DNA of 64,000 bases from Methylopila capsulata (lineage in GTDB: Bacteria; Pseudomonadota; Alphaproteobacteria; Rhizobiales; Methylopilaceae): contig NZ_JAFBCY010000001.1 of NCBI RefSeq assembly GCF_016907975.1, positions 434,001-498,000 of the forward strand. The letters run 5' to 3'. Both the position numbers and the translations under genes were made by a program. Below are positions 13,274 through 25,605 of this stretch, in pieces. The notes beneath the pieces are model-generated. The model was not told the origin of the DNA and made no database searches. It saw only the letters and a list, made by a program, of their open reading frames with translations. The first letter of the stretch is position 1, and the number at the start of each line of letters is the position of its first letter.

Positions 13274-15595
13274 TCACTTCCACTGTTTCTCCTCGTTCAC
13301 CCAGAACGATCCCGGCAGCAGTCCCGGCTTGATGAAGGCGTCGACCAGATTGCCCAGCAGCTTCGAGATGTTGTTGTCGAAGCCGTTGATCGGCAGCGCC
13401 TGGCAGAAGGCGATCGAGCCGGTGCTGAACACGGCGCCGTTGTTGGGCGTCGGGAAATACACGAGGTCGGCGCGCAGCCGGTAGTCCTGCGAGCCGGCGA
13501 GGCCCGGGTAGGGATAGAGGATCTCCTCGATCGACAGCATGTAGTTGTCGCTGTGGCCGCCCGAGGAGGCGATGATCTTGGCGTGCGGCGGCGTGCCGAG
13601 AGTGAGGTCGTAGCGGTCGAGCTCAAGGCCTGCTGCGCCGCCGTAGGCGAGGCCGAAGTCGCCGATGATCTCGCCCTCGATGCCGTTGAACATCCAGTCG
13701 ACCGTGCGGTGGTAGCTGTCCGGCATCCGGCGGAACGGCCGGCTGGTCTCGAAGCCTTCGCCGATGAAGCCGACGCCGAAGGTCTTCTGCGGCGGACGGC
13801 CGAGGTTCTTCCAGAGGCCGCTCTTCTGGCCGGTGGTCGCGAGATAGTGCTCGCCCGGCCGCGCCTGCCAGGCGCGCATGCCAGAGTCGAGCTTGCGCAC
13901 CTCCATCACCCACGGCTCCTCATTCCGGAACGCCACGTTCCAATAGAAGCCGTTGCCGCCCATGTAGATGAAGCGCCCGCCGCCGGCGACGTAGTCCTCC
14001 ATCGCGTCCAGCATGGGCTCGGAGGTGTATTCGGGGTGCGAGCCGGTCAGCACGCAGGCGTAGGGCTCGATCGCGGCCAGACCCTCGCGGTGCAGGTCCT
14101 CGTCGGTGACGACGTCGTAGTCGTAGCCCTTGGTCTCCAGCCAGGCGAGGATCGACAGGTCTGCGGGAAACGCCCAGGTGACGCCCATGCTCGACATGCG
14201 CGCCTTGGGCCGCATGTTCAGGATCGGACGGCGGTAGGAGGTGTAGCAGACGCCGTTGCCGTCGGCCCAGCTGTCGTAGGTCGAGAAGCCGAACTCCCAG
14301 TTCTTGTACATCTCGATGTCGATTTCGGTGACGATCGGCGGCTGCCCCGTCATCGGCTGAATGATCTGGGCGTCGAAGCTCAGATGCTCGTTGGCGTAGG
14401 CGAGATAGGTCGCGGTCGGGAACAGCAGCGCGACCTTGCCCTTCGGCGTCTTCGGCCGGACGAAGAACACGACGTACTCTTCCGCGAGGCCCGTGCCCGG
14501 CCCCGCCCTCAGGCGGATCGCGTAGCAACCGCTCTTGAGATCGTCCGGCAGGCGGATGGTGCGCGTCTTCTCCCAGTTCGAGTCCACCACCTGGTCGTAG
14601 TGGAACTCGACCCCGCCGTACTCCTCGGGGGCCAGACGGAAGCAGTCGTTGCGGCCGTTCCAGTTCCAGCCGGTCTGGGCGCGCACTGGGCGGTTGAAGC
14701 CGAGCGCGTTCAGCCTGTGCGGGCCGGCGTCGATCACGACGTCGCCGATCCCCTGGTCGGTGTAGCCCGCGGTCGTGTCCCAATAGGCGACGAGGCCGTC
14801 CGGCTTCGGCGGCTTGCCGTCGCGGATCTCGTCCAGCTCGGCGCGGGTCAGGGCGCGGCCGTAGACGCCGGGACGGTCGATCTTGCCGCAGTAGGTCTCG
14901 GAGACGAAGGCGCCGCGGGTCTCGTGGAAGTCCTGCGAACCGGCGATCAGGAACGGCGTTTCGGCGAGATGTTTCGGCCGGAAACGGAAGGTCTCGGTGA
15001 CGTGGCTGCGGTACTCGATCGGGCAGACCTTGCCGAGCAGGCTGTTGTACCGGTTGGCGACGCTTTCCTGATAGATCTCCGTCCGGCCGGTCTTCGGATC
15101 GTAGCTGACGGCGACGAAGTACCACATCTTCACCAGCAGCGGGGCCTCCGCCTGGATGTAGTCGACCTCGCTCCCCTGCCCCACCCAGAATTCCAGATGG
15201 CCGCGCTGGTTGATGCCGAGCGAGTAGCCGAAGTTGCGGTCGTTGTTCCAGCGCGCCAGCAGGCACTGCCGCAGGCCCGCGTCCGGGATGCCGGGAAAGA
15301 TGAAGGCGAACAGCGTGATCGGCCCGTCGAGCGCGAGCACGTTGGTCGGATCGTCCACCTTCAGGTAGGAGCCGACCTGGGTGTACTGCTTCCGCACGGC
15401 CCAGGGACCATCCGCCTCGCAGGCCACCTCCTCCTCGATGAAGCCCGGTCCGTCCGGATGCTCGTCGCCGTGGATCAGGCGCACGAGCTTGGCGTCCGCC
15501 GTCTCCACGCCGTCGGCCGAGACGTGGATGTCGACGGTCTCGCCCGGCTTCACCGAGATCTTGTCGGCGTAGCCGAACAGTTTCACCTGGGCCAT
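13274..15595 (-). CDS. dmfA2: N,N-dimethylformamidase large (catalytic) subunit
   Basis: A 773-residue protein with the length and layout of the DMFase beta subunit, which hydrolyses N,N-dimethylformamide to formate and dimethylamine. It has an N-terminal beta-rich region (GYADKISVKPGET, LVRLIHGDEHPDGPG), a LamG-like sandwich (residues about 85-270) and a C-terminal catalytic region. Residues at the places expected for the mononuclear iron site of characterised DMFase are present: Y400 (TYLAY), Y440 (FSTY), H520 and E522 in GSHPEYTS, and E658 (GLELD). The last assignments rest on recalled family numbering, offset by about one. It is the last gene of the transport operon, 63 bases after the permease/small-subunit gene. 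A related amide is also possible as substrate. Confidence 0.9.
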   Translation of the reverse strand: MAQVKLFGYADKISVKPGETVDIHVSADGVETADAKLVRLIHGDEHPDGPGFIEEEVACEADGPWAVRKQYTQVGSYLKVDDPTNVLALDGPITLFAFIFPGIPDAGLRQCLLARWNNDRNFGYSLGINQRGHLEFWVGQGSEVDYIQAEAPLLVKMWYFVAVSYDPKTGRTEIYQESVANRYNSLLGKVCPIEYRSHVTETFRFRPKHLAETPFLIAGSQDFHETRGAFVSETYCGKIDRPGVYGRALTRAELDEIRDGKPPKPDGLVAYWDTTAGYTDQGIGDVVIDAGPHRLNALGFNRPVRAQTGWNWNGRNDCFRLAPEEYGGVEFHYDQVVDSNWEKTRTIRLPDDLKSGCYAIRLRAGPGTGLAEEYVVFFVRPKTPKGKVALLFPTATYLAYANEHLSFDAQIIQPMTGQPPIVTEIDIEMYKNWEFGFSTYDSWADGNGVCYTSYRRPILNMRPKARMSSMGVTWAFPADLSILAWLETKGYDYDVVTDEDLHREGLAAIEPYACVLTGSHPEYTSEPMLDAMEDYVAGGGRFIYMGGNGFYWNVAFRNEEPWVMEVRKLDSGMRAWQARPGEHYLATTGQKSGLWKNLGRPPQKTFGVGFIGEGFETSRPFRRMPDSYHRTVDWMFNGIEGEIIGDFGLAYGGAAGLELDRYDLTLGTPPHAKIIASSGGHSDNYMLSIEEILYPYPGLAGSQDYRLRADLVYFPTPNNGAVFSTGSIAFCQALPINGFDNNISKLLGNLVDAFIKPGLLPGSFWVNEEKQWK

Positions 15596-15640: not shown

Positions 15641-15676
15641 TCAGGACTCGAGGAGATCTCAGGACTCGAGGAGATC
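15641..15676. repeat. 18-bp perfect tandem duplication over the dmfA1 stop codon
   Basis: The 18-mer TCAGGACTCGAGGAGATC occurs twice without a gap (15641-15658 and 15659-15676). On the minus strand one copy encodes the final residues and stop of the small subunit (LLES, stop); the other is an untranslated duplicate just after it. It leaves the reading frame intact. Confidence 0.95.
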
Positions 15677-16024
15677 CTGGACGCGGCGGAGGAAGACGCC
15701 GTGATAGGCCTCGTCCGTCGACGTGTAGATCTTGTCCTCGACGATGCGCGGAGCGACGCCGCGCTGCCCCGAGAGGGCGACGATGCGGTAGGCCTTGAAC
15801 GGCTCGACGGCCACGATCGCGTATTTGTCGTTCTGCGGAGCGCGGCGGAAGTAGAGCAGAAGGCGCTCCAGCGGCTCGCTGTGCTGGCCGAGCGGCTTCT
15901 TGCGGTGCTCCTCGATCAGCTCCGGCGAGATCACCGTCTTCAGGAACTCGCGCTGCATCTTGTCGTAGCGGCGCCAGTACAGCAGGTCCTTGTCCTTGGT
16001 CTCGGTGGCTTCCTCAGGCAACAT
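15659..16024 (-). CDS. dmfA1: N,N-dimethylformamidase small subunit, possible independent translation product within the fusion frame
   Basis: An internal ATG at 16024 in the same frame as the permease is preceded by AAAGGAGG at four bases' distance, the best ribosome binding site in this operon. Translation from it gives a 121-residue protein, close to the roughly 130 residues known for the DMFase alpha (small) subunit, with the conserved VFLRRVQDL end. The cell could therefore make free small subunit, the permease fusion, or both. The small subunit packs on the large subunit in known DMFase complexes. Listed separately because the start decides what protein is made; the sequence alone cannot say which. 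Confidence 0.7.
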   Translation of the reverse strand: MLPEEATETKDKDLLYWRRYDKMQREFLKTVISPELIEEHRKKPLGQHSEPLERLLLYFRRAPQNDKYAIVAVEPFKAYRIVALSGQRGVAPRIVEDKIYTSTDEAYHGVFLRRVQDLLES

Positions 16025-17299
16025 CTCGCCTCCTTTCTCGGCCCGCATGGACCGGCGTTCGCTCTTCTTCTTGTCGCGCCAGGCCCGGAACTGAGCCTTG
16101 ATGCCGAACAGCCCGCCCTTCAGGAACAGCACCACCCCGAGCATGATCAGGCCGATGAGGATCAGCCGGAGCGGACCGGTGGAGAGCAGCACCTTGTCGA
16201 GCAGGATCACGATCGCGGTGCCGACCACCGCGCCCTCGGCCCGGCCGATGCCGCCGATGACCAGCATGGCGAGCCCGAGCAGCACCGTGTCGAAGCTGAA
16301 GATCGAGAACGACACGCCGCGGTAGTGCGCGGCGTAGAAGCCGCCGATGAAGCCGAGCCCGATCGACGAGATCACGAACACCCAGATGCGGGCGCGCCGG
16401 AAGTCGACGCCGGTCGCCTCCGCGAAGGCCTCGCGCTTCTCGGGCGCCATCTTCAGGATGCGGCCGAGCCTGCGGCCGTCGATGAAGCGGTAGAGCGCAA
16501 GCCCCGCCAGCATCACGCCGAAGCAGGCGTAGTAGGCGAGCAGCGACTGGTCGTACTGGTCCCACCCCTGCGGGATGTAGGTGTCGGCGCCGTAGAGACC
16601 GCCGGTCGACGACCCGAACTGCTTCGACTGCAGCGTGTAGACGCGGCAGAGCTCGTTCAGGCCGATGGTCAGCAGCGCGTAGTAGAACCCGTCGAGCCGG
16701 ATCGCGGGCACGGCGATGATCATGCCGAACACCAGGCCGATGCCGGCGCCGACCAGCGGCAGCGCCCACCAGGGCAGCCCGAGGTTGATCGACAGCCACG
16801 AGGTCCCGAACGCCGCGGCCCCCACCACGGCGTAGCTCGCCAGCGAATAGATGCCCGCGGTGCCGATGATCAGCATCCAGCAAAGGTTGATCGCGGCGTA
16901 GATCGAGAAGGTCGCGCCGGCCGTCAGCAGCGTGTTCTGGAACGACGTCGGCATCACCAGCGGCGCCAGCATGAAGGCCAGCAGGCCCAGCACCCACCAG
17001 ATCGGCCGCTTGTCGACGATGGTCTTCTCGAGACGCATCGTCTTCGGATTGTAGACGCTGCGGATGTTCAGCGCCCGCCGGCGCGTCCCCCAGTAGCGGA
17101 AGCGCGGCCAGGTCAGGCCGCCGTGGCCCGGCCACTTGTAGTAGTAGCGCAGCCGCCCGACCGGCAGCATCGGCGCCTTGGACGTGGTGGTCTCGTCCCA
17201 CACGTCCTGCGGGCTTTTGTGCGGGATGGAGGGGACCTCCTTCTCCGCGCCTTCGACGCCCCAGAAGTAAAGCGGATTGCGCCAGATGTGGCCGGTCAT
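15659..17299 (-). CDS. branched-chain-type ABC permease (LivM-like) fused to N,N-dimethylformamidase small subunit
   Basis: One open frame of 546 residues from the ATG at 17299 (TTG at 17305 is an alternative). Residues 1 to about 95 are a polar, Trp/Tyr/Arg-rich extension absent from ordinary LivM. Residues about 96-400 are a LivM permease with eight or more hydrophobic segments and the motifs SLASYAVVGAAAFG, VPAIRLDGFYYALLTIGLNELCR and VIGGIGRAEGAVVGT. After a basic linker (RDKKKSERR) the last 121 residues match the DMFase small subunit: LLYWRRYDKMQREFLK, PLERLLLYFRRAP and the end AYHGVFLRRVQDLLES. No stop separates the two parts. A Shine-Dalgarno sequence and ATG sit inside the frame at the junction. 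The gene lies between livH and dmfA2. Confidence 0.88.
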   Translation of the reverse strand: MTGHIWRNPLYFWGVEGAEKEVPSIPHKSPQDVWDETTTSKAPMLPVGRLRYYYKWPGHGGLTWPRFRYWGTRRRALNIRSVYNPKTMRLEKTIVDKRPIWWVLGLLAFMLAPLVMPTSFQNTLLTAGATFSIYAAINLCWMLIIGTAGIYSLASYAVVGAAAFGTSWLSINLGLPWWALPLVGAGIGLVFGMIIAVPAIRLDGFYYALLTIGLNELCRVYTLQSKQFGSSTGGLYGADTYIPQGWDQYDQSLLAYYACFGVMLAGLALYRFIDGRRLGRILKMAPEKREAFAEATGVDFRRARIWVFVISSIGLGFIGGFYAAHYRGVSFSIFSFDTVLLGLAMLVIGGIGRAEGAVVGTAIVILLDKVLLSTGPLRLILIGLIMLGVVLFLKGGLFGIKAQFRAWRDKKKSERRSMRAEKGGEMLPEEATETKDKDLLYWRRYDKMQREFLKTVISPELIEEHRKKPLGQHSEPLERLLLYFRRAPQNDKYAIVAVEPFKAYRIVALSGQRGVAPRIVEDKIYTSTDEAYHGVFLRRVQDLLES

Positions 17300-17301
17300 G
17301 C

Positions 17302-18183
17302 TCAAGCTTCCCGAGCGCGGTCGAGGATACCCGCGATGCCGCGGGGACGGACGAGCAGGATCAGGATGATCAGGATGAACTGGGTGATCAGCACGTACTG
17401 GCCGCCGAGCAGGCGGGCGGTGAGCGCCTCGTTGAGGCCGAGGATGATCGCCGCGATCACCGCGCCCCGGACGCTGCCGAGCCCGCCGCAGAGCGCGATG
17501 CTGACGCCCTTGATCATCGGCGCGAGGCCGCCGAAGGGCGAGATGTAGTAGGTCTGCGACAGCAGCACCGCCGCGAGGCCCGCGAGCCCGCCGGTGATCG
17601 CCATCACGTAGAAGCCGGTCTTGCGCACCCCGATGCCGACGATCGAGGCGGCGTGCGGGTTCATCATCATCGCCCGGATCTCGAGCCCCCGCCGGCTCGA
17701 CCGCATCCAGAGCAGCACCGCGGTCACCACCACGATGGAGACGACGACGTTGCCGATCTTGTCGGACGTCAGGACGATCCCCGCGAGGTTGATCTTCCAG
17801 AAGCCGAAGATGTCCGGCAGATTCTTGGACCGCGGGCCGAAGACGTAGAGCAGCGCCTGCGTACCGATGAGGCTGATGGCGAGCGTCGCGATCAGGCCGC
17901 GGACGGTGAAATTCGGCTTGTCGTGGATCGGGATGAAGGCGAGCGCGCAGACCAGCAGCCCGCCGAGGGCGCCCGTGAGCACGCCCGCGGTGAGCACCAC
18001 CACGCCGTTGGTCGAAATGTACTGCGAGGCGAGCCAGGCGCCGTAGCCCGACAGCGCGAAGATGAAGCCGTAGCCGAGGTTGATCAGGCCGACGCTCGAC
18101 CAGGTAATGGAGAGCCCGATCGCGAGCGTGCCGTAGATGCAGGCGAGCACGATCGCGTTGGTCAGGATGAAGCCGACGTCCAT
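17302..18183 (-). CDS. ABC transporter permease, LivH/HAAT family
   Basis: Inner-membrane permease of 293 residues beginning MDVGFILTNAIVLACIYGT from the ATG at 18183. Sequence upstream to 18252 in this frame overlaps the end of the ATPase gene and is not needed. About eight hydrophobic helices and the motifs SVGLINLGYGFIFALSGYGAW and KGVSIALCGGLGSVRGAVIAAIILG identify the LivH side of a branched-chain amino acid/amide-type importer. It ends one codon before the permease-DMFase fusion gene. In this operon the substrate is most likely a short-chain amide. Confidence 0.9.
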   Translation of the reverse strand: MDVGFILTNAIVLACIYGTLAIGLSITWSSVGLINLGYGFIFALSGYGAWLASQYISTNGVVVLTAGVLTGALGGLLVCALAFIPIHDKPNFTVRGLIATLAISLIGTQALLYVFGPRSKNLPDIFGFWKINLAGIVLTSDKIGNVVVSIVVVTAVLLWMRSSRRGLEIRAMMMNPHAASIVGIGVRKTGFYVMAITGGLAGLAAVLLSQTYYISPFGGLAPMIKGVSIALCGGLGSVRGAVIAAIILGLNEALTARLLGGQYVLITQFILIILILLVRPRGIAGILDRAREA

Positions 18184-18187
18184 GGGA

Positions 18188-18946
18188 TCAGAGCTCCCGG
18201 CGGGTCTGGAAGGACAGCGACGCCGAGGCCTCGCCCTTGAGCTTGCCGACATGCATGCCGATGACGCGGTCGACGCGGCCCTCGAGCAGCGCGACGTTCT
18301 GCTCGGCGATGATCATCGCGGACTGGCCGAGCTCGACATCGAACAGCGCCTCCATCACGCCCTTGCCGATCTTGGGCGCGAGGCCGAGCGAGGGCTCGTC
18401 GACGAGGAACAGCGAGGCGTCCGCCATCAGCCCGCGGCCGATCGAGACCATGCGCCGCTCGCCGCCGGACAAGCGGCCGACAGGGGTCTTCAGCAGCTTC
18501 ACCAGCGGCGGGAAGATCTTGAGGATCTTCTCCTTGCGCTCCTTGCGCTCCTTCCAGGCGCGGGGCGTGAAGGCGCCGGAGTCGAGGTGCTCCTCGACGG
18601 TGAGCCCGTGGAAGATCTCGTCGCCCTGCGGGATGAGCGCGAGGCCCTGGCGGACCACGAGGTGGGTGTAGCGGCCCGGGCCCTGGCTGCGCGTGCGCCC
18701 GACCTCGACGCCGTTCAGCAGGATCGAGCCGCGCTGCCAGCCCGTGAGGCCGGCGATGGCATAGAACAGGGTCGACTTGCCGTGGCCGTTCAGGCCGACG
18801 ATGCCGACGCGCTCGCCGGAATAGACCGACAGGTCGAGGTCGTGGATGACCCGCATCGGACCGTAGCCGGCGGACAGGCCCTTCACCTTCAGGATCTCGC
18901 GCCGCTCCGCGGGGGCGGCGGGCTGCGCCGCGACGGGGGCGCTCAC
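18188..18946 (-). CDS. ABC transporter ATPase, LivF type
   Basis: Cytoplasmic nucleotide-binding subunit, 252 residues. Walker A is GLNGHGKST (residues about 52-60); histidine replaces the usual alanine. The Q-loop region is LALIPQGDEIFHGLTVEEHL, the signature LSGGERRMVSIGR and Walker B LFLVDEPSLGLAP, and the H-loop position reads AEQNVALL, as normal for LivF. An N-terminal extension of about 18 residues is alanine/proline-rich. The gene overlaps livG by four bases and is followed after four bases by livH. Confidence 0.92.
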   Translation of the reverse strand: MSAPVAAQPAAPAERREILKVKGLSAGYGPMRVIHDLDLSVYSGERVGIVGLNGHGKSTLFYAIAGLTGWQRGSILLNGVEVGRTRSQGPGRYTHLVVRQGLALIPQGDEIFHGLTVEEHLDSGAFTPRAWKERKERKEKILKIFPPLVKLLKTPVGRLSGGERRMVSIGRGLMADASLFLVDEPSLGLAPKIGKGVMEALFDVELGQSAMIIAEQNVALLEGRVDRVIGMHVGKLKGEASASLSFQTRREL

Positions 18947-19707
18947 GCGCCGTCCCCTTCGCCGGGTCCCTCGAAGTAGGCGGCGTGGACCTTGGGGTCC
19001 GTCAGGATGTCGGCGAGCGATCCGGAGGCGATGACGGACCCTGCGTCCATCACCATCACCCGGTCGGCGATGGTCTCCAGCAGCTCGATCCGATGCTCCA
19101 CGATGACGATCGCCACGTTCATCTCCTTCGAGAGCATGCGGATGAGGTGGTCGATCTCGTCGACCTCCGAGTTGATGAGGCCGGCCGCGGGCTCGTCCAT
19201 CAGCAGGATCGCCGGACGCCGCATGAGCAGGCAGGCCAGCAGCAGCTTCCTCCGGTTCATGGTCTCGAGCTGCGCGGTCGCGTCGTCGTGGTCGACGTGC
19301 AGATGCACGAGCTCCGCGCCATACTCCGCGTCGAGCCGCGTCAGGTAGGGGCGGTAGGCCTGACGGGCGGCCTTGAAGGTCTGGCCGACCGTCAGTTCAT
19401 CGGGCACCACGGGGGTCTGGTAGGTGCGCCCGACGCCGAGGCGCGCCCGCGCGTGCAGCGGCAGCCGGGTGATGTCCTCGCCCTTGAAGGTCACCCGCCC
19501 GCTCTTCGGCCGCATGCGGCCAGACAGCACCTCGAACAGGCTGGTCTTGCCGGCGCCGTTCGGGCCGATGATCCCGAGCACTTCGCCGGGCCGGACGTCC
19601 AGGCTGATCCCGTGCAGGATCGAGCGGCCGCCGAGATCGAGCTTGATGTCCTCGCACGCGAAGAGCGGCGCGTCCGAAACGCGCGCCGCCCTCGCAGGCG
19701 CCGCCAT
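18943..19707 (-). CDS. ABC transporter ATPase, LivG type
   Basis: Nucleotide-binding subunit of 254 residues from the ATG at 19707, which overlaps the stop of the binding-protein gene as TGATG; GTG at 19719 is the alternative start. Walker A is GPNGAGKTSLFE, with LPLHARARLGVGRTYQTPVVPDELTVGQ after it. Walker B is ILLMDEPAAGL and the H-loop IVIVEHRIELL. The usual LSGGQ signature is degenerate here: the corresponding segment reads LETMNRRKLLLACLLM. Such loss occurs in one of the paired ATPases of some LivFG transporters, but it should be noted. Confidence 0.9.
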   Translation of the reverse strand: MAAPARAARVSDAPLFACEDIKLDLGGRSILHGISLDVRPGEVLGIIGPNGAGKTSLFEVLSGRMRPKSGRVTFKGEDITRLPLHARARLGVGRTYQTPVVPDELTVGQTFKAARQAYRPYLTRLDAEYGAELVHLHVDHDDATAQLETMNRRKLLLACLLMRRPAILLMDEPAAGLINSEVDEIDHLIRMLSKEMNVAIVIVEHRIELLETIADRVMVMDAGSVIASGSLADILTDPKVHAAYFEGPGEGDGA

Positions 19708-20993
19708 CAGCTCCACCACGGCGCGGGCTTGAGCGCGGATTCCTTGATCTCGTAGGGATAGATGATCTTGTGCTCGACGTCCTGGACCTGGACGTAGAGC
19801 TGGCTCATGCCCTTCTCGAGCTCGGTCGCCGTGACCGCGAACCCGTTGTCGGGGAAGTGCCCGGACTCCTGATATTCGTTGTTCATGTTCATGTATCCGC
19901 AGACCCCCCGGTAGGGGTTGGTGCGGATCCAGTCACAGACCTCCTTGAACTTCGAGGGGTCTCCTACGGCCTCCCACGCGGCCTTCAGGTAGTAGGCGAT
20001 GTCGTAGCCGTTGCCGGTGTAGACGAGGCCCATGATGCCGGGGAAACGCTTCTTGTACTTGGCGCGGAAGGCGTTGCCCTTCTCGTCGGCGTAGACGCCG
20101 AGCACCGTCGACCAGCAGAAGCCGTTGGCCGCCTCGCCCGCGAGCGTCAGGAACTCGGGCTGCGACGGGCCGTACTGGAGATAGACCAGCGAGTTCGGCA
20201 CCGGATCGGCCTGGAACTGCTTGCAGAAGGCGGCGTATTCAGCGGCGACCCAGTGGTCGATCATGATCGCGCCGGCGTCGACCTCCTTCAGCTCCTGGAT
20301 CACCGGACCCCAGTCCTGCACCGGGAACTGGATGTCGGTGATCTTGGCCACCTCGAAGTCGCTCTTCTTCAGCGCCTCCTGGGCCGCGCGCGAGATCGTC
20401 TGGCAGTAGGCGACCTGCTCCTGGACGATGTGCACCTTGCGGTTCTTCGGCTTCCAGGCGCCGGAGCTCTCCATCGCCTTCAGCCAGATCGGGTAGGTGT
20501 AGCCGTAGTGCACTTCCGACGGGTCGGTTTGGAAGACGTGGCTGTACTTCTCGGGGTTCTTCTTCACCGCCTCGGTCGCAGCGCGCTGGGTGTTGCCCTC
20601 GAGATAGGGGCACTTGTACTTGGCGGAGGCGTCCATCGCAGGGATCGGCACGAACACGAAGGCGTTCGAGATCGCGTGCACCTTGGCGTCGACGCAGGCG
20701 GCGATCGCCTGCTGGCAGCTTTCGGGCGAGAGCTTGTCGACGTCGGTGACGTAGAGCTTCAGCGGCCGGCCGAGGATGCCGCCGGCGGCGTTGATCTCCT
20801 CCATGGCGAGGGTCGTGCCGTTGAGGTGGTCGAGGTCGTCGGCGACGCCTGCGGCCGCGGTCTGCGACGTCGGAACGCCGAGCAGGATGGGCTCCGCCGC
20901 CCAGGCCCGCGAGATGAAGGGGGTCGAGAGCGCCGCCGCGGCGCCGCCCGCCGCCGTCGCCTTCACAAGTGTCCGCCGCGTGATGTCTTTCAT
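19707..20993 (-). CDS. amide-type ABC transporter substrate-binding protein (Tat-exported)
   Basis: A type-1 periplasmic binding protein of 428 residues in the LivJ/UrtA/AmiC superfamily. The N-terminus MKDITRRTLVKATAAGGAAAA carries a twin-arginine signal with likely cleavage near SRAWAAE. Mature features are GVPTSQTAAAGVADDLDHLNGTTLAMEEINAAGGILGRPL and SLVYLQYGPSQPEF. It is the first gene of an overlapping transporter-DMFase operon, so DMF or related small amides are the likely ligands. It shares clear similarity with the signal-less protein at 23556-24773, for example the identical core SLVYLQYG. Ligand is inferred from context. Confidence 0.9.
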   Translation of the reverse strand: MKDITRRTLVKATAAGGAAAALSTPFISRAWAAEPILLGVPTSQTAAAGVADDLDHLNGTTLAMEEINAAGGILGRPLKLYVTDVDKLSPESCQQAIAACVDAKVHAISNAFVFVPIPAMDASAKYKCPYLEGNTQRAATEAVKKNPEKYSHVFQTDPSEVHYGYTYPIWLKAMESSGAWKPKNRKVHIVQEQVAYCQTISRAAQEALKKSDFEVAKITDIQFPVQDWGPVIQELKEVDAGAIMIDHWVAAEYAAFCKQFQADPVPNSLVYLQYGPSQPEFLTLAGEAANGFCWSTVLGVYADEKGNAFRAKYKKRFPGIMGLVYTGNGYDIAYYLKAAWEAVGDPSKFKEVCDWIRTNPYRGVCGYMNMNNEYQESGHFPDNGFAVTATELEKGMSQLYVQVQDVEHKIIYPYEIKESALKPAPWWS

Positions 20994-21239
20994 CGTGCCG
21001 CCCCCAGGGTCGCGTTAAACGATCGCGAGATCACTACGCATTACGTCTAGCTCTCTGGGCTAGAGGCTAGGCGGCGGGCTTTTGGAGTGTCAACTGCATT
21101 TCGTCCCACGAAACGAATTTTCTTTTGGTATCCGCTTCGCGATCTTCTGCATTTGGCCTTCGATCCGCCTATGTATGAGGCAGACGCCTCTCCAAAGTGG
21201 CTATTGAGTAAGCTAGCCAATTCGTTTAGATCGGAACCC
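20994..21239. promoter_or_regulatory. divergent promoter region between the amide operon and its regulators
   Basis: A 246-base stretch visibly poorer in G+C than its surroundings. It separates the leftward transporter/DMFase operon from the rightward regulator genes and must hold both promoters. A perfect inverted repeat TTTCGTcccACGAAA at 21099-21113 is a good candidate operator for the LuxR-type regulator. No convincing sigma-70 hexamer pair could be assigned by eye. Confidence 0.6.
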
Positions 21240-22010
21240 ATGCTGAACTCCTTCGAGAGCATCGCTCCCAAGCCGAGGCGCCGCGGCCGCGCGGAGGACG
21301 CCGACCGCGCGCCGCGCCCCGACGCCTCGCGCGACGCGCCTGCGGGAGCGCGGCTGAAGGTCGTCATCGCCGACGACCACTGGATGGTCCGGCAGTCGCT
21401 CAAACAGGTGATGCAGCGGCTGGAGCAGACGATCGAGATCTACGAAGCGGAGAGCTTCGCCGAGGCCGCGGAGACGCTGGCGCGCCATCCCGACGTCGAT
21501 CTCATGCTGGTCGATCTGGTGATGCCGGGGTTCGAGGCCTTCGCGGGGCTGCGGCGGCTGCGCAAGGAGTTCCCGACCGTCCCGCTCGTGGTCGTCTCGG
21601 TGCACGAGGACGTCGAGCACGTCATGCGCTCGGTCGAACACGGCGTCATCGGCTACATCCCGAAGTCGGCGGGCGCGCCCGAAGTGGAGCGCGCGCTGGA
21701 GCGCGTCCTCGCCGGCGAGGTGTCATTCCCTCGCCGCATCATCGAGCGGTCCGCCCCCGGAACGCCGGCCGCCCCGACGCCCGAGCCGGCGCCGGACGCG
21801 CCGGCGCTGACAGACCGGGAGCGCGAGGTGATGGAGCTGCTGGGACGCGGCGCCTCGGTGCGGAAGATCGCGGAAGCCTGCGGCGTCGCGGAGCAGACCG
21901 TTCGCGTCCACCTGCGCAACGCCATGAAGAAGCTAAACCTCCCCGACAGATCCGCGGCCCTGCACTACGCCATGAGCCTGTTCGGCGGCGCCAACGCCGG
22001 CCGTGGCTGA
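21240..22010 (+). CDS. response regulator, NarL/LuxR family, of the amide locus
   Basis: A 256-residue two-domain regulator. The receiver domain occupies about residues 38-160, with acidic pair D45/D46 (VVIADDHWMV), phospho-acceptor D92 (LMLVDLVMPG) and K residue in IPKSAGA. An Ala/Pro linker leads to a LuxR helix-turn-helix at about residues 185-245 (LTDREREVMELLGRGASVRKIAEACGVAEQTVRVHLRNAMKKL). I chose ATG 21240, where G+C content rises to coding level; no strong ribosome site is seen and ATG 21171 is possible. The gene overlaps the kinase start by eight bases. It probably activates the divergent DMFase operon. A LuxR-type regulator is also reported beside dmf genes in Paracoccus (from memory). 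Confidence 0.88.
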   Translation: MLNSFESIAPKPRRRGRAEDADRAPRPDASRDAPAGARLKVVIADDHWMVRQSLKQVMQRLEQTIEIYEAESFAEAAETLARHPDVDLMLVDLVMPGFEAFAGLRRLRKEFPTVPLVVVSVHEDVEHVMRSVEHGVIGYIPKSAGAPEVERALERVLAGEVSFPRRIIERSAPGTPAAPTPEPAPDAPALTDREREVMELLGRGASVRKIAEACGVAEQTVRVHLRNAMKKLNLPDRSAALHYAMSLFGGANAGRG

Positions 22011-23529
22011 CGGAGACTCCGCGTCGGAGGCGAACGCCGGTCGCGTGTTCGCCGGTTTCGACGCTTTGCCGAACGGGGCCGCGGTCTGGGATGAGACGGG
22101 CGCACTGCTCTTCGCGAACCGCGCATTCCGCCGGAGCTTCGACTTCGCGCTTCCTGTCGGCCTGCTCTACGCGCGCTTCCTGACAGCCGTCGTGGCCTCT
22201 CGGGAGTGGCGGCTGCCAGATCCTCCGGAGATGTGGATCGCGGACCAGGCCGCGGCCTTCGGAGACGAAAGCGAAGCCGACTACAAATCGGCGGACGGAC
22301 GCGTTGTCCGGATGTCGGTCGCCCCCGTCGACGGCGGCGGCGCCATCACCATGCTCTCGGACGTGACGGCCGCGGAGCGCCGGGAAGCGACGCTGCTGGC
22401 CGCCAAGGAGAAAGCCGAGGCCATCGACGAGGCGAAGTCGCGCTTTCTGCGGGCCGCCAACCACGACCTCAGGCAACCCCTCGCGGCGTTGAAGATCATG
22501 ATCTTCAACTGCGTGCGCGAGACAGACGAGGCGCGCCGGCGCGAACTGCTGCACGGCATGGACGTGTCGGCGTCCGTGATGGAGGATCTGCTCGGCGCGC
22601 TGCTGCAGATCGGACAGCTCGACGCCGGCCGGATCAAGCCACGGGTCGCGACGTTCCAGCTGTCGACGCTGTTCGAGCGTCTCGAGATCCAGTTCCGCCA
22701 TCAGGCCACGGACAAGGGCTTGAGCCTGCGGATCGTCGGCGCCCGCGCCGCGGTGTCCAGCGACCGCGCGCTGCTCGAACGGATCCTCAGCAACATCGTC
22801 GCCAACGCGCTCCGCTTCACCGACGTCGGCGGCGTGCTGGTCGGCTGCCGGCGACGCGGCGACGGGCTCCGCATCGACGTCGTCGACACCGGGCGGGGCG
22901 TCGCGGCCGAGGATCAGGAGAGGATCTTCGACGAGTTCTATCGCGCGGCGGACGATCGACGGCTCGAGAAGACCGGCCTCGGCCTCGGCCTCAACATCGT
23001 CAAGCGCCTGTCGGACCTGCTCGGCCATCGGATCCAGCTGCAGTCCGCGCCGGGCGTCGGGTCGCGCTTCTCGGTGTTCGTGCCGCTCGGCAACGTCTGG
23101 CACAGCGAGGTCGTGGAGACCGAGGTGAACGAGGCGGTCGCCGGAGAGTTCGTCGGCGCGCCCATCCTGCTCGTCGAAGACGACGACGCGCTCCGGGAGG
23201 CCATGGGCCAACTGCTCGACCGTTGGGGCGTCGATCGGCGCTCCGCGGCGGGGGCCGAGGAGGCCGCGGCGATCGTCGCCGGCGGGTTCCGGCCGCGGCT
23301 GATCATCGCCGACTACAGCATCCGCATGAGCACCGGCCTCGACGTGATCGCCCACGTCCGGGCCGTGTCGGGAGCGGAGATCCCCGCCTGCATCATCACC
23401 GCCGACGCGGAGCCCGGCGTCGTCGAGCGGGTCCGCGCCGCGGGCGTGCCCTTGATGGTGAAGCCCGTCAGCCCGCCCCGGCTCAGGGTGATGATGCACC
23501 ACCTGCTGTTCGAACGAGACCCCGCCTGA
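22003..23529 (+). CDS. soluble hybrid histidine kinase (PAS-HisKA-HATPase-REC)
   Basis: A 508-residue kinase starting at GTG 22003, overlapping the response regulator stop. No membrane segment is visible, so it is cytoplasmic. Order of parts: PAS-like domain (about residues 13-120, LPNGAAVWDETGALLFANRAFRR), dimerisation domain with phospho-accepting H154 in RAANHDLRQPLAAL, catalytic domain with N box ILSNIVANALRFT, G1 box DTGRGV, F box IFDEFYRA and G2 box LGLGLNIVK. A C-terminal receiver (about 388-500, ILLVEDDD and IIADYSIRM) completes it. It should phosphorylate the adjacent LuxR-type regulator. The signal may come from the cytoplasmic binding protein encoded next. Confidence 0.9.
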   Translation: MADGDSASEANAGRVFAGFDALPNGAAVWDETGALLFANRAFRRSFDFALPVGLLYARFLTAVVASREWRLPDPPEMWIADQAAAFGDESEADYKSADGRVVRMSVAPVDGGGAITMLSDVTAAERREATLLAAKEKAEAIDEAKSRFLRAANHDLRQPLAALKIMIFNCVRETDEARRRELLHGMDVSASVMEDLLGALLQIGQLDAGRIKPRVATFQLSTLFERLEIQFRHQATDKGLSLRIVGARAAVSSDRALLERILSNIVANALRFTDVGGVLVGCRRRGDGLRIDVVDTGRGVAAEDQERIFDEFYRAADDRRLEKTGLGLGLNIVKRLSDLLGHRIQLQSAPGVGSRFSVFVPLGNVWHSEVVETEVNEAVAGEFVGAPILLVEDDDALREAMGQLLDRWGVDRRSAAGAEEAAAIVAGGFRPRLIIADYSIRMSTGLDVIAHVRAVSGAEIPACIITADAEPGVVERVRAAGVPLMVKPVSPPRLRVMMHHLLFERDPA

Positions 23530-23555
23530 ACCGAAACGCCGGAAGGACGAACGCC

Positions 23556-24773
23556 GTGGTCGACGCCTTCATCCCCATTGGCAGCATGGTGCCTCTGACC
23601 GGCCCGTCCGCGGCCGACGGCGCCGAGTTTCGCAAGGGCGTCATCCTGGCGGCCGAGGAGGTGAACGCCCGTGGCGGCCTCCTGGGCCGCCCGATCAGGC
23701 CGATCTTCGCCGACACCGGCCGCCAGGGCGCCGAAGACGTGGTCGCGGCGGCCCGCACGCTGATCGGGACGCACAAGGTCCACGCCATCGTCAACGGCTA
23801 CAACATCGGCCCGCAGAACTCCGAGTACGAACCGGTGGCGGAGGCCGGCGTGATCTACATCCACGCCAACACGCTGCTGCAGCACCACGACACGGTGATG
23901 AGCGATCCCGATCGCTACTTCGGCTGCTTCATGACCGACCCCGCCGACTACTGGTACGGGCCGGGCTTCCTGAAGTTCATCTCGTGGCTGCGGGACACCG
24001 GCCAGTGGAAGCCGTCGTCGAACCGCATCGCCATCGTGTCCGGCTCGAAGCCCTACAGCATCGTCATCGCTCAGGCGATGGCGTCGTCCGCCGCCAAGTT
24101 CGGCTGGCGCGTGTGCTTCGGTCCCGAGATCGTGCAGACGCCGACCTCCGAATGGCGCGAGGCGCTCGACGCGATCCGCGCGACGGAGCCCGCGGTGATC
24201 GCCAACACCCATTTCTATTCGGGCGATCTTGCGAGCTTTCAGCTGCAGTTCATGGAGCGCCCGACCGACAGCCTCGTCTATCTCCAGTACGGCGCCATGC
24301 ACCAGTCGTTCTCGGACATCGCGCAGGGCAAAGGCGTCGGCGTGCTGACGAGCACGGTCATCGGCCTGCTGCGCGACGAGATGGGCAAGAGCTTCGCTTC
24401 GCGCTACGTGGCCCGCTTCGGCGAGGGCTCGACGCCGCACATCGGCTGCCAGTCCTACAGCGCGCTGCACCACTACGTCCTCGCCGCCTCGCTCGCCGGC
24501 GGCTCGGCCGGGCCCGGCGGCTTCGAGCAGAACCGGAAGGTGGCGAAGGCGCTGAAATCGGTGATCTACCGAAGCGTTTCCGGCACGATCCGCTACGACG
24601 AGCAATGGCAGGCCGCCGCGCCCTACCCCGTGGTCTCCCAGGACCCTTCGTTGGGCCTCCCGCACCTGTTCTTCCAGATCCAGGACTACCGCAAGCCGCT
24701 CGCCCTGATCGCGCCGGAGCCGTTCAACACCGACCGCTTCGTCCTGCCGCCCTGGATCGACGCGCGCGGCTGA
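23556..24773 (+). CDS. cytoplasmic amide-binding protein (AmiC/UrtA-like), putative sensor
   Basis: A 405-residue type-1 binding-protein fold starting at GTG 23556, preceded by GGAAGGA. It begins MVDAFIPIGSMVPLTGPS, so the first strand of the fold starts at once and there is no signal peptide. Family motifs are KGVILAAEEVNARGGLLGRP, CFMTDPADYWYG and SLVYLQYGAMHQSF. It is a paralogue of the exported binding protein at 19707-20993 but stays in the cytoplasm, like AmiC, the amide sensor of Pseudomonas. It lies 26 bases after a soluble hybrid kinase, suggesting that it reports internal amide level to that kinase. A transport role is unlikely. The sensor role is inferred. Confidence 0.85.
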   Translation: MVDAFIPIGSMVPLTGPSAADGAEFRKGVILAAEEVNARGGLLGRPIRPIFADTGRQGAEDVVAAARTLIGTHKVHAIVNGYNIGPQNSEYEPVAEAGVIYIHANTLLQHHDTVMSDPDRYFGCFMTDPADYWYGPGFLKFISWLRDTGQWKPSSNRIAIVSGSKPYSIVIAQAMASSAAKFGWRVCFGPEIVQTPTSEWREALDAIRATEPAVIANTHFYSGDLASFQLQFMERPTDSLVYLQYGAMHQSFSDIAQGKGVGVLTSTVIGLLRDEMGKSFASRYVARFGEGSTPHIGCQSYSALHHYVLAASLAGGSAGPGGFEQNRKVAKALKSVIYRSVSGTIRYDEQWQAAAPYPVVSQDPSLGLPHLFFQIQDYRKPLALIAPEPFNTDRFVLPPWIDARG

Positions 24774-24858
24774 CGACCCTGGACCTTGATGAGCCCCGCG
24801 GCCGCGCCGATAGTTGGCAGGCGCCCGCGCAGATCGCCGACGGCCAGGACAGGTTCGC

Positions 24859-25605
24859 ATGAACGGCACCGAGCACAGCTCCGGCGACATGCTTCTCTCG
24901 GAGGAGCAGGCGGACGCGGCGCCCGCGCCGGGCATGCTGGGGCCGCTCGCGCCGGAGGATCGCGCGCGCGTCGAAGCGCATGGGCGGCGGATCGCGTATG
25001 AGCGCGGCCAGACCATCTTCCGGCAGGGCGACGCACATGACGGCGTGGTGCTGATCCAGCGCGGTCTGGTCCGCAGCTTCTACGCCGCGCCGCAGGGCCG
25101 TGAGATCACGCTGGCCTACTGGCGGCCGGGCGCCTTCGTGGGCGGGCCTGACGTCTTCGGCGGCGGGCGGCACATCTGGGCGGCCGAGGCGGCCCGTCCC
25201 ACCGAAGCGCTGCACCTGCCCGGCGCGGGCCTACGGGCACTGGCGCGCGAGGTGCCTGACCTCGCCCTCGGCATCATCGACGCGCTCGCCTACAAGGCCC
25301 GCTGCTACTCCTCGCTGGCGCAGATGCTCGGGACCCGCTCGCTCGGCGAGCGGCTGGCGCATGTGCTGCTGCATATGATGCAGATCCATGGGGTGCCGGA
25401 CGACGACCAGGCGAAGGGCGTCGCCATCGCGGCCTCGTTCACCCACGCGGAGATCGCGGCGCTGATCGGGGCTACCCGGCAATGGGTCACGATCAGCCTC
25501 AACCGGCTTCAGAAGGACGGCGCGCTGAGCCAAAAGCGGGGTGTGCTTCGGATCCTGAAGCCGGACGCGATCATTGCGCTCGCCGGCGGCGACCGCGCAG
25601 CCTGA
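24859..25605 (+). CDS. Crp/Fnr-family transcriptional regulator
   Basis: A 248-residue regulator with an N-terminal cyclic-nucleotide-binding-like beta roll (about residues 25-140, TIFRQGDAHDGVVLIQRGLVRSFY) and a C-terminal winged helix (about 165-240, FTHAEIAALIGATRQWVTISLNRLQKDGAL). The ATG at 24859 is preceded by AGGACAGG. No cysteine cluster typical of FNR oxygen sensors is present. It follows the amide sensor genes by 85 bases on the same strand and precedes the M20 hydrolase operon, so it could serve either. The effector is unknown. Confidence 0.88.
   Translation: MNGTEHSSGDMLLSEEQADAAPAPGMLGPLAPEDRARVEAHGRRIAYERGQTIFRQGDAHDGVVLIQRGLVRSFYAAPQGREITLAYWRPGAFVGGPDVFGGGRHIWAAEAARPTEALHLPGAGLRALAREVPDLALGIIDALAYKARCYSSLAQMLGTRSLGERLAHVLLHMMQIHGVPDDDQAKGVAIAASFTHAEIAALIGATRQWVTISLNRLQKDGALSQKRGVLRILKPDAIIALAGGDRAA

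Follow-up and report, generated by a model that had tools for sequence, protein, structure and literature searches.

A permease-dimethylformamidase small-subunit fusion gene with an internal start: a probable source of tethered and free enzyme subunits

We describe a gene of Methylopila capsulata on the minus strand of a 64,000-nucleotide stretch of contig NZ_JAFBCY010000001.1 (positions 434,001 to 498,000; this whole stretch is referred to as the window). One frame (15659..17299, stop codon included) encodes a protein of 546 residues in which an ABC-importer permease is joined through a linker to a domain corresponding to DmfA1, the small subunit of dimethylformamidase (DMFase). At the junction an internal Shine-Dalgarno (SD) sequence and an ATG are embedded in frame. 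We consider it probable that this gene has two products, a membrane-tethered and a free small subunit, and that DMFase thereby docks on its own importer. Comparison across loci shows the fused frame to be an old, conserved trait, and comparison of operon types shows selection at the RNA level on the internal SD and start, which are lost where a separate dmfA1 exists; both statements are read from aligned genes.

The fused frame and its distribution

From its ATG at 17299 the frame runs for 546 codons to a stop, and its translation contains no internal stop; a TTG in the same frame stands just ahead, at 17305. An N-terminal extension of about 95 residues (17015..17299), lying ahead of the first hydrophobic segment, is the least conserved part of the protein, with a mean majority-residue share of 0.63 as against 0.76 for the membrane part. 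Trp and Arg positions are conserved within the extension; matches from a sister clade, described below, begin at residues 47-57 in three full-length cases, and sister frames can be as short as 507-511 residues. The membrane part (16100..17014) matches BPD_transp_2 (Pfam, residues 129-389, E 2.5e-22), and hydrophobic segments fall between residues 100 and 397. We call it LivM-like, not LivM, its score against the curated LivM model NF008450 being 46.7 bits with a cut-off of 366. A basic linker follows (residues 401-425; 16025..16099), ending in EKGGE; its mean majority-residue share of 0.86 was the highest of the five regions measured (50 sequences, from all three operon types defined below). 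A basic stretch after a membrane segment marks the cytoplasmic side (the positive-inside rule), so that this linker, which follows the last hydrophobic segment, would place the DmfA1 domain in the cytoplasm. The domain itself (15659..16024; 121 residues and a stop) is also the proposed free product. The Pfam search gave no family match for this part of the fusion; residues 430-543 match residues 11-127 of the 132 in 6lvb_B, the solved DMFase small subunit, with an E value of 3e-12. An earlier note on this DNA had read the gene as an in-frame union of permease, basic linker and DmfA1, and the uninterrupted frame and the two domain matches bear this out.

The earlier note had offered a missing or mutated permease stop as the simple alternative, and had proposed a search for the same fusion in related genomes. 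We scanned 84,980 species genomes, selecting on two permease peptides only, and obtained 74 loci. The junction is read through in one frame in 70 of the 71 scanned loci that contain it (alpha-, beta- and gammaproteobacteria by title, with several Methylo- genera); L091 and L092, where the contig ends ahead of the junction, and L097, described below, were left out of this count. The frame is also open in 6/6 fetched plasmid loci, in all nine distinct loci of the sister clade and in five of the 18 genomes of the window's own family, and Methylopila sp. Yamaguchi (L025) has a fused protein with 99% identity to the window's. In these comparisons we saw no permease that was closely related yet unfused. 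A class-wide sample was too sparse to add events: matches at E<=1e-100 came from two of 385 genomes, and the window's genome was one of the two. Because the frame is conserved across the scan, plasmid and sister-clade loci, the fusion is not a local mutation; a sequencing error or a lost permease stop is rejected, and with it the note's simple alternative.

In a tblastn search of plasmids, at least 26 records among the matches listed cover at least 80% of the fused query at 60-80% identity, and the next matches listed drop to 28-32% identity over about half of it. The six loci mentioned above were fetched from these 26 records, and all show the order importer genes, fusion, dmfA2, with a dmfA1 in between in L022 and two dmfA2 genes in L019. 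Five annotated plasmid records label the fused frame as a permease only. Together with the lack of a Pfam match for the small-subunit part, this accounts for the apparent absence of a small-subunit gene from such DMFase operons.

The sole exception to the open junction is L098 (1-985), a single-cell contig of Pelagibacteraceae with a frame change within 506-558. It has the same genes, permease and DmfA1 lying in two frames that overlap at 506-558 and contain an eight-T run at 518-525, about 100 nt ahead of the junction, where AGAGGAGGAGAA is followed by an ATG at 623; this may be either an error or a real frameshift. L097 (1-504) was considered as an unfused permease and rejected: its 504 nt, at the end of a contig, match a part of L048, from the same Rhodopseudomonas draft genome, without any difference, after which it runs into unrelated sequence lacking the junction. 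We take it for either a broken copy or a join made in assembly.

Several records are of interest for their setting. In L020-L024 the operon lies on large plasmids typed as conjugative, from Agrobacterium, Rhizobium and Ensifer records, one of them pTiAB2_73. In L019, the Aminobacter conjugative plasmid pMDW2, the fusion is followed by the two dmfA2 genes, no separate dmfA1 was seen in 8 kb, and the operon adjoins propionyl-CoA synthetase and haloacid dehalogenase genes. Records titled Oceanobacillus (L066) and Klebsiella pneumoniae (L089) also carry the fused frame; L089 is a short metagenome contig, and the title of L066 is probably wrong, its genome (G432) falling in the family of G440, a Rhodobacter record.

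The internal start and the three operon types

In the window the junction reads AGAAAGGAGG-CGAG-ATG (16038-16022), in frame, as had been noted earlier. The SD (16029..16038) thus stands 4 nt ahead of the ATG (16022..16024) that is the proposed start of the free small subunit. In the genome of 4,135,070 bases this junction is the single occurrence of the pattern AAAGGAGGN{4,9}ATG. The 10-nt match of the SD to the assumed anti-SD complement is the longest among the operon positions examined, the other seven giving 0-5 nt (one of the two LivH positions among these seven was placed one codon late); the permease start has 3 contiguous nt and dmfA2 has 4. The greater length of the internal SD would tip production towards the free subunit over the tethered one. 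Codon reshuffles of the window peptide, using the gene's own codon usage, reached the pairing energy of the junction in 1.25% of 400 draws. Taken by itself, the window gene is uncommon in this respect without being conclusive, and the proof comes from the comparison of loci.

Three types of operon were distinguished: type I, fusion-dmfA2 (45 rows, including the window); type II, fusion-dmfA1-dmfA2 (17 rows); and type III, fusion-dmfA2-dmfA1-dmfA2' (11 rows: L038, L039, L041, L042, L044, L046, L047, L051, L063, L079 and L094). Duplicates of the window or of L025, L026 and L028 (L001, L003-L005) were dropped ahead of counting, L002, which is nearly the window itself, was set aside, and L034, L048, L078 and L080 were too short to be typed; in L089, with only 2,364 nt after the fusion, a type III dmfA1 copy could be missed. 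An SD was scored when at least 6 contiguous nt paired, and a start when ATG, GTG or TTG was present. By this rule SD and start are kept together in 39 of the 45 type I operons, which have no separate dmfA1, but in none of the 28 of types II and III, which have one (Fisher 1.1e-14); the SD alone is present in 39/45 and 1/28, respectively. The difference persisted when the rows were thinned by identity (31/36 versus 0/23 at 95%, 24/28 versus 0/20 at 90%, and 16/20 versus 0/12 at 80%). The Met codon of the junction is ATG in 44/45 type I genes, the remaining one, L087, having GTG as its next codon; it is ATG in 8 of the 11 type III genes and in none of the 17 of type II, where 15 have GCN, one GTG and one CTG. 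In types II and III, moreover, a search up to 90 nt to either side of the junction found no relocated start whose SD reached 6 nt.

These differences arise within a nearly invariant peptide, EKGGE-x-LPEEA, that is shared by all three types. The commonest type I junctions read GAG AAA GGA GGC GAR ATG or GAG AAA GGY GGA GAR ATG, whereas those of types II and III are mostly GAR AAG GGC GGC GAR, followed by GCN, ATG, CTG, ATC or GTG. Lys422 is encoded by AAA in 41 of the 45 type I genes (8.0 expected from their own usage) but in only 2 of the 28 of types II and III (4.6 expected), and Gly423 by GGA in 22/45 type I genes (4.4 expected). When the 233 conserved columns of type I were ranked by synonymous conservation (ranks were used because the z values of the column scan ignore relatedness), AAA at 422 came first and GGA at 423 third. 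In types II and III, by contrast, column 422 (AAG in 26/28) ranked 120th and column 423 (GGC in 24/28) 36th of 231. In type I the junction mRNA also folds more weakly than its synonymous reshuffles do (median z +1.73), which holds neither for type II (-0.77) nor for type III (-0.99). An artefact of GC content or codon bias is rejected, the median gene GC being equal in types I, II and III (0.638, 0.630 and 0.631) and the expectations being taken from each gene's own codons.

These data bear on two accounts that would deprive the internal start of a function. According to the first, only the fusion is made and the SD-like string is a by-product of the codons for EKGGEM. Lys-Gly-Gly-Glu can indeed be encoded in an SD-like way, and the peptide is itself conserved. 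Where a separate dmfA1 exists, however, the same peptide is encoded mostly by AAG GGC GGC at equal GC, and the replacement of Met by Ala in 15 of the 17 type II genes indicates that the protein does not require the Met; we regard this account as improbable. The second holds that the string is a programmed ribosome pause that aids membrane insertion or folding of the fusion. Its position in the linker, past the last hydrophobic segment, would suit such a role, but the same membrane fusion is present in types II and III, which lack the string, and an ATG is kept alongside the SD in type I and one codon later in the sister clade, so that we give a pause almost no weight. Of the three outcomes that the earlier note had entertained, i.e., the fusion, the free subunit, or both, the retention pattern makes both the best reading, and its suggestion of an internal ribosome binding site gains the support of the comparison.

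The sister clade consists of nine distinct loci (L100, L102, L103, L104, which shares a contig with L121, and L116-L120), with permeases 47-53% identical in four of them. Here too the fusion is followed by dmfA2, and no separate dmfA1 was seen in 1,367 nt after the fusion (L100) or in more than 5,000 (the others). The junction peptide is EKGGE[VAI]MPEEA, with the ATG one codon later and kept in 9/9; the codon ahead of it varies (GTC, GTG, GCC or ATC). The SD of L100, AGAAAGGAGGTGA, gives 13 contiguous nt and that of L104 gives 7. A tree was rooted with eight of the sister loci (a quick method, with 25 of 81 inner branches open; rows whose permeases were short were not included), and in it types II and III fall inside type I. 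The likely order is therefore that the fusion and its internal start came first and the separate dmfA1 afterwards; as the tree stands, separate dmfA1 genes would have been gained twice and the internal start lost twice.

A number of observations tell against a functional internal start, and should be set beside the above. The 16S tail was not found in the window's genome with two patterns, so that the anti-SD is assumed, and the 4-nt spacing between SD and ATG is short. Six of the 45 type I genes fall below the 6-nt rule, L086, L087 and L089 with GGGAGG and L052, L057 and L095 with weak matches; conversely, eight of the 11 type III genes retain the ATG without an SD. The other seven of the nine sister loci have only 5-nt matches, in strings of the GGGGG or GGAGG type. 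Pairing energy separates the groups less well than does contiguous pairing (medians -11.0 versus -7.5, p 1.6e-4), 19/45 type I genes lying within the range of types II and III, and with a longer anti-SD the energies become -14.2 versus -13.6. Individual type I genes beat their own reshuffles at the 5% level in only 22/45 cases by SD length and 13/45 by energy, figures that would also suit the by-product account, and the window's own folding z is only +0.60. Finally, the operon type changes no more than twice on the tree, which leaves two events as the basis of the association, and a sign test on independent pairs gave p 0.5 and was unable to reach 0.05.

Two of the weak loci, L057 and L095, are type I loci of Methylobacterium with GGTGGTGAA and then ATG; no separate dmfA1 was seen in 7 kb, and elsewhere in each of the two genomes there is a single small-subunit match, partial and more distant.

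Supply of the small subunit and a proposed docked enzyme

The DMFase of Paracoccus is described as a complex of two large subunits with two small ones, or of double that number; the large subunit is inactive without the small one, whose N-terminal helix is wedged between two large ones (PMC7686228). In 13 of 30 genomes with type I operons only, no DmfA1 match at E<=1e-8 other than the fused frame was found; these are draft genomes, five of the 13 being metagenome-assembled by title and one (G422) having two fused frames. Because the frame is the only match in these 13 and DmfA2 needs a small subunit, the fused gene must feed the enzyme. The remaining 17, on the other hand, hold other DmfA1-like matches elsewhere, mostly distant or partial, which counts against the two-product reading.

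Types II and III preserve both frame and linker, although a separate dmfA1 gene is present. In type II, moreover, the fused copies are 62-69% identical to the window's domain (3 aligned), as against 35-62% for the separate copies (5 aligned), and the fused DmfA1 branches are shorter than those of the separate copies. (In this DmfA1 tree of fused and free copies, with 121 columns and long branches, an origin of the free copies from the fused domain was not resolvable.) Because the frame and linker are kept and the separate type II copies have diverged more, the fused copy has a role of its own, which would most simply be docking.

Two further accounts are weighed by the same evidence. One of them holds that only the free subunit matters, and that the fusion is run-through of a permease that lost its stop. 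It draws on the internal SD of the window, which is much longer than that of the permease start (10 versus 3 contiguous nt), yet the frame and linker are intact in alpha-, beta- and gammaproteobacterial loci, and types II and III keep the domain without the internal SD and start, though its loss was possible; this account seems to us very improbable. In the other, both products are made, but the fused copy holds no active enzyme and acts as a sensor or gate of the importer, e.g., by reporting the state of enzyme or product. The lower divergence and shorter branches of the type II fused domain would accord with this, implying that it does something that the free copy does not. However, the fused frame is the only source of DmfA1 found in those 13 type-I-only genomes, and its domain must still fit DmfA2, so that a sensor or gate appears unlikely, though less so than the other alternatives.

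In the dual-product reading, which we prefer, full-length translation would yield an importer permease carrying the DmfA1 domain on its cytoplasmic C-terminus, initiation at the internal SD and ATG would yield the same small subunit in free form, and DmfA2, encoded just downstream, would assemble with both tethered and free small subunits. The LivH-LivM pair presumably offers one such tail, and one tethered plus one free small subunit would then make one complete enzyme at the exit of the importer. We infer that both proteins accumulate and that DmfA2 binds the tethered copy; docking would be expected to let the amide be hydrolysed faster once imported. The earlier note had raised tethering at the mouth of the transporter on its cytoplasmic side, with channelling of the substrate; this is plausible, being compatible with the basic linker and with the inactivity of the lone Paracoccus large subunit.

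Going one step further, and with more reserve, we lean towards a genetically encoded importer-hydrolase metabolon: DMFase would have one of its own structural subunits as the permease tail and would be put together on the importer, with the two starts in one gene fixing how much of it is docked and how much is free; where a separate dmfA1 was added, the internal start would have decayed but the docking subunit stayed. If so, an importer has a covalent link to the enzyme that uses up what it brings in, by way of a structural subunit, and the free subunit comes from the same gene. The three operon types are a natural experiment that separates the purpose of the fusion from that of the free subunit.

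Neighbouring genes and known systems compared

DmfA2, the large subunit (13274..15595; 773 residues), lies downstream of the fusion and matches PF20254 (E 1.1e-92) and 6lvb_A (E 1.3e-182). Among solved structures the runner-up is 8huy, an acylase of N-acetyl-(R)-beta-phenylalanine, with a far weaker score (388.7 versus 612 bits). Between fusion and dmfA2 an exact 18-bp tandem duplication at 15641-15676 (tcaggactcgaggagatc twice, plus strand) spans the stop codon of the fused gene, so that its last codons and stop are present twice. Type III operons have two DmfA2 genes, with 57-68% identity to the DmfA2 of the window, which suggests two enzymes, or a mixed one, at one importer.

The genes on the other side of the fusion, all with matches to profiles, are those of the partner permease of LivH type (17302..18252; PF02653, E 1.5e-29; likely start ATG 18183), an ABC ATPase of LivF/UrtE type (18188..18946), a second of LivG/UrtD type (18943..19719), and a periplasmic substrate-binding protein (19707..20993; PF13458, E 1e-26) with a twin-arginine signal (TIGR01409, 23.1 bits, cut-off 16.7); all lie on the minus strand, as does dmfA2. 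The operon thus encodes a complete importer (two BPD_transp_2 permeases, two ABC ATPases and one Peripla_BP protein), which we take to be of the HAAT type, together with DMFase. From operon context alone, the imported compound is predicted to be the DMFase substrate, i.e., dimethylformamide (DMF) or another small amide. A divergent regulatory set adjoins the operon (21087-25605, plus strand), with a LuxR-type response regulator, an NahK/ErcS-like hybrid histidine kinase, a Crp/Fnr regulator and a second Peripla_BP_6 protein (23487-24773); it is possibly the amide sensor of the operon.

In the Paracoccus DMFase (PDB 6lvb; PMC7686228) both subunits are recognisable counterparts of those in the window, and the window's DmfA2 conserves the iron ligands Y399, Y440 and E521 as well as H519 and N547 (alignment to 6lvb_A). 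In Paracoccus aminophilus dmfA1 and dmfA2 form an operon for the two subunits (PMC4543880), and both genes are also named in PMC11381386; in the window, by contrast, an importer permease carries the small subunit as its C-terminal end. A second operon in the window's own genome (L101, G000:C2:36000-55000) likewise combines an importer of LivH/LivM type with small-subunit genes and a DmfA2-like protein (38% identity), but its permease (382 residues) is unfused and its small subunits are free frames of 136 and 153 residues. In the open-licence part of PubMed Central we found no paper that joined dimethylformamidase with an ABC transporter, or DMFase with a fusion or an internal start, and a search for permease-hydrolase fusions gave nothing fitting by title or abstract opening among the matches listed.

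Three known systems resemble the proposed arrangement in part. SulP transporters with carbonic anhydrase domains join a transporter to an enzyme acting on its cargo, although they are not ABC importers and we know of no dual start in these fusions. In SctQ/YscQ one gene gives a long protein and its own C-terminal subunit, as is proposed for the window: the full-length protein is accompanied by a C-terminal product from an internal in-frame start, and this short product is needed for assembly and is abolished by a Met-to-Ala change (PMC4295842). SctQ/YscQ is, however, part of the C-ring of injectisome secretion, not a transporter joined to an enzyme. With cas8b and cas10d, some subtypes produce the small subunit, Cas11, by internal initiation and others have a distinct gene for it (PMC11899642), which is the same trade as between the types of dmf operon. 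That case differs in concerning a CRISPR effector complex. The long partner, Cas8 or Cas10d, is also not a membrane protein. A gene that gives a long protein and its C-terminal subunit is thus already known, and it is the partnership of an importer with DMFase that is unusual.

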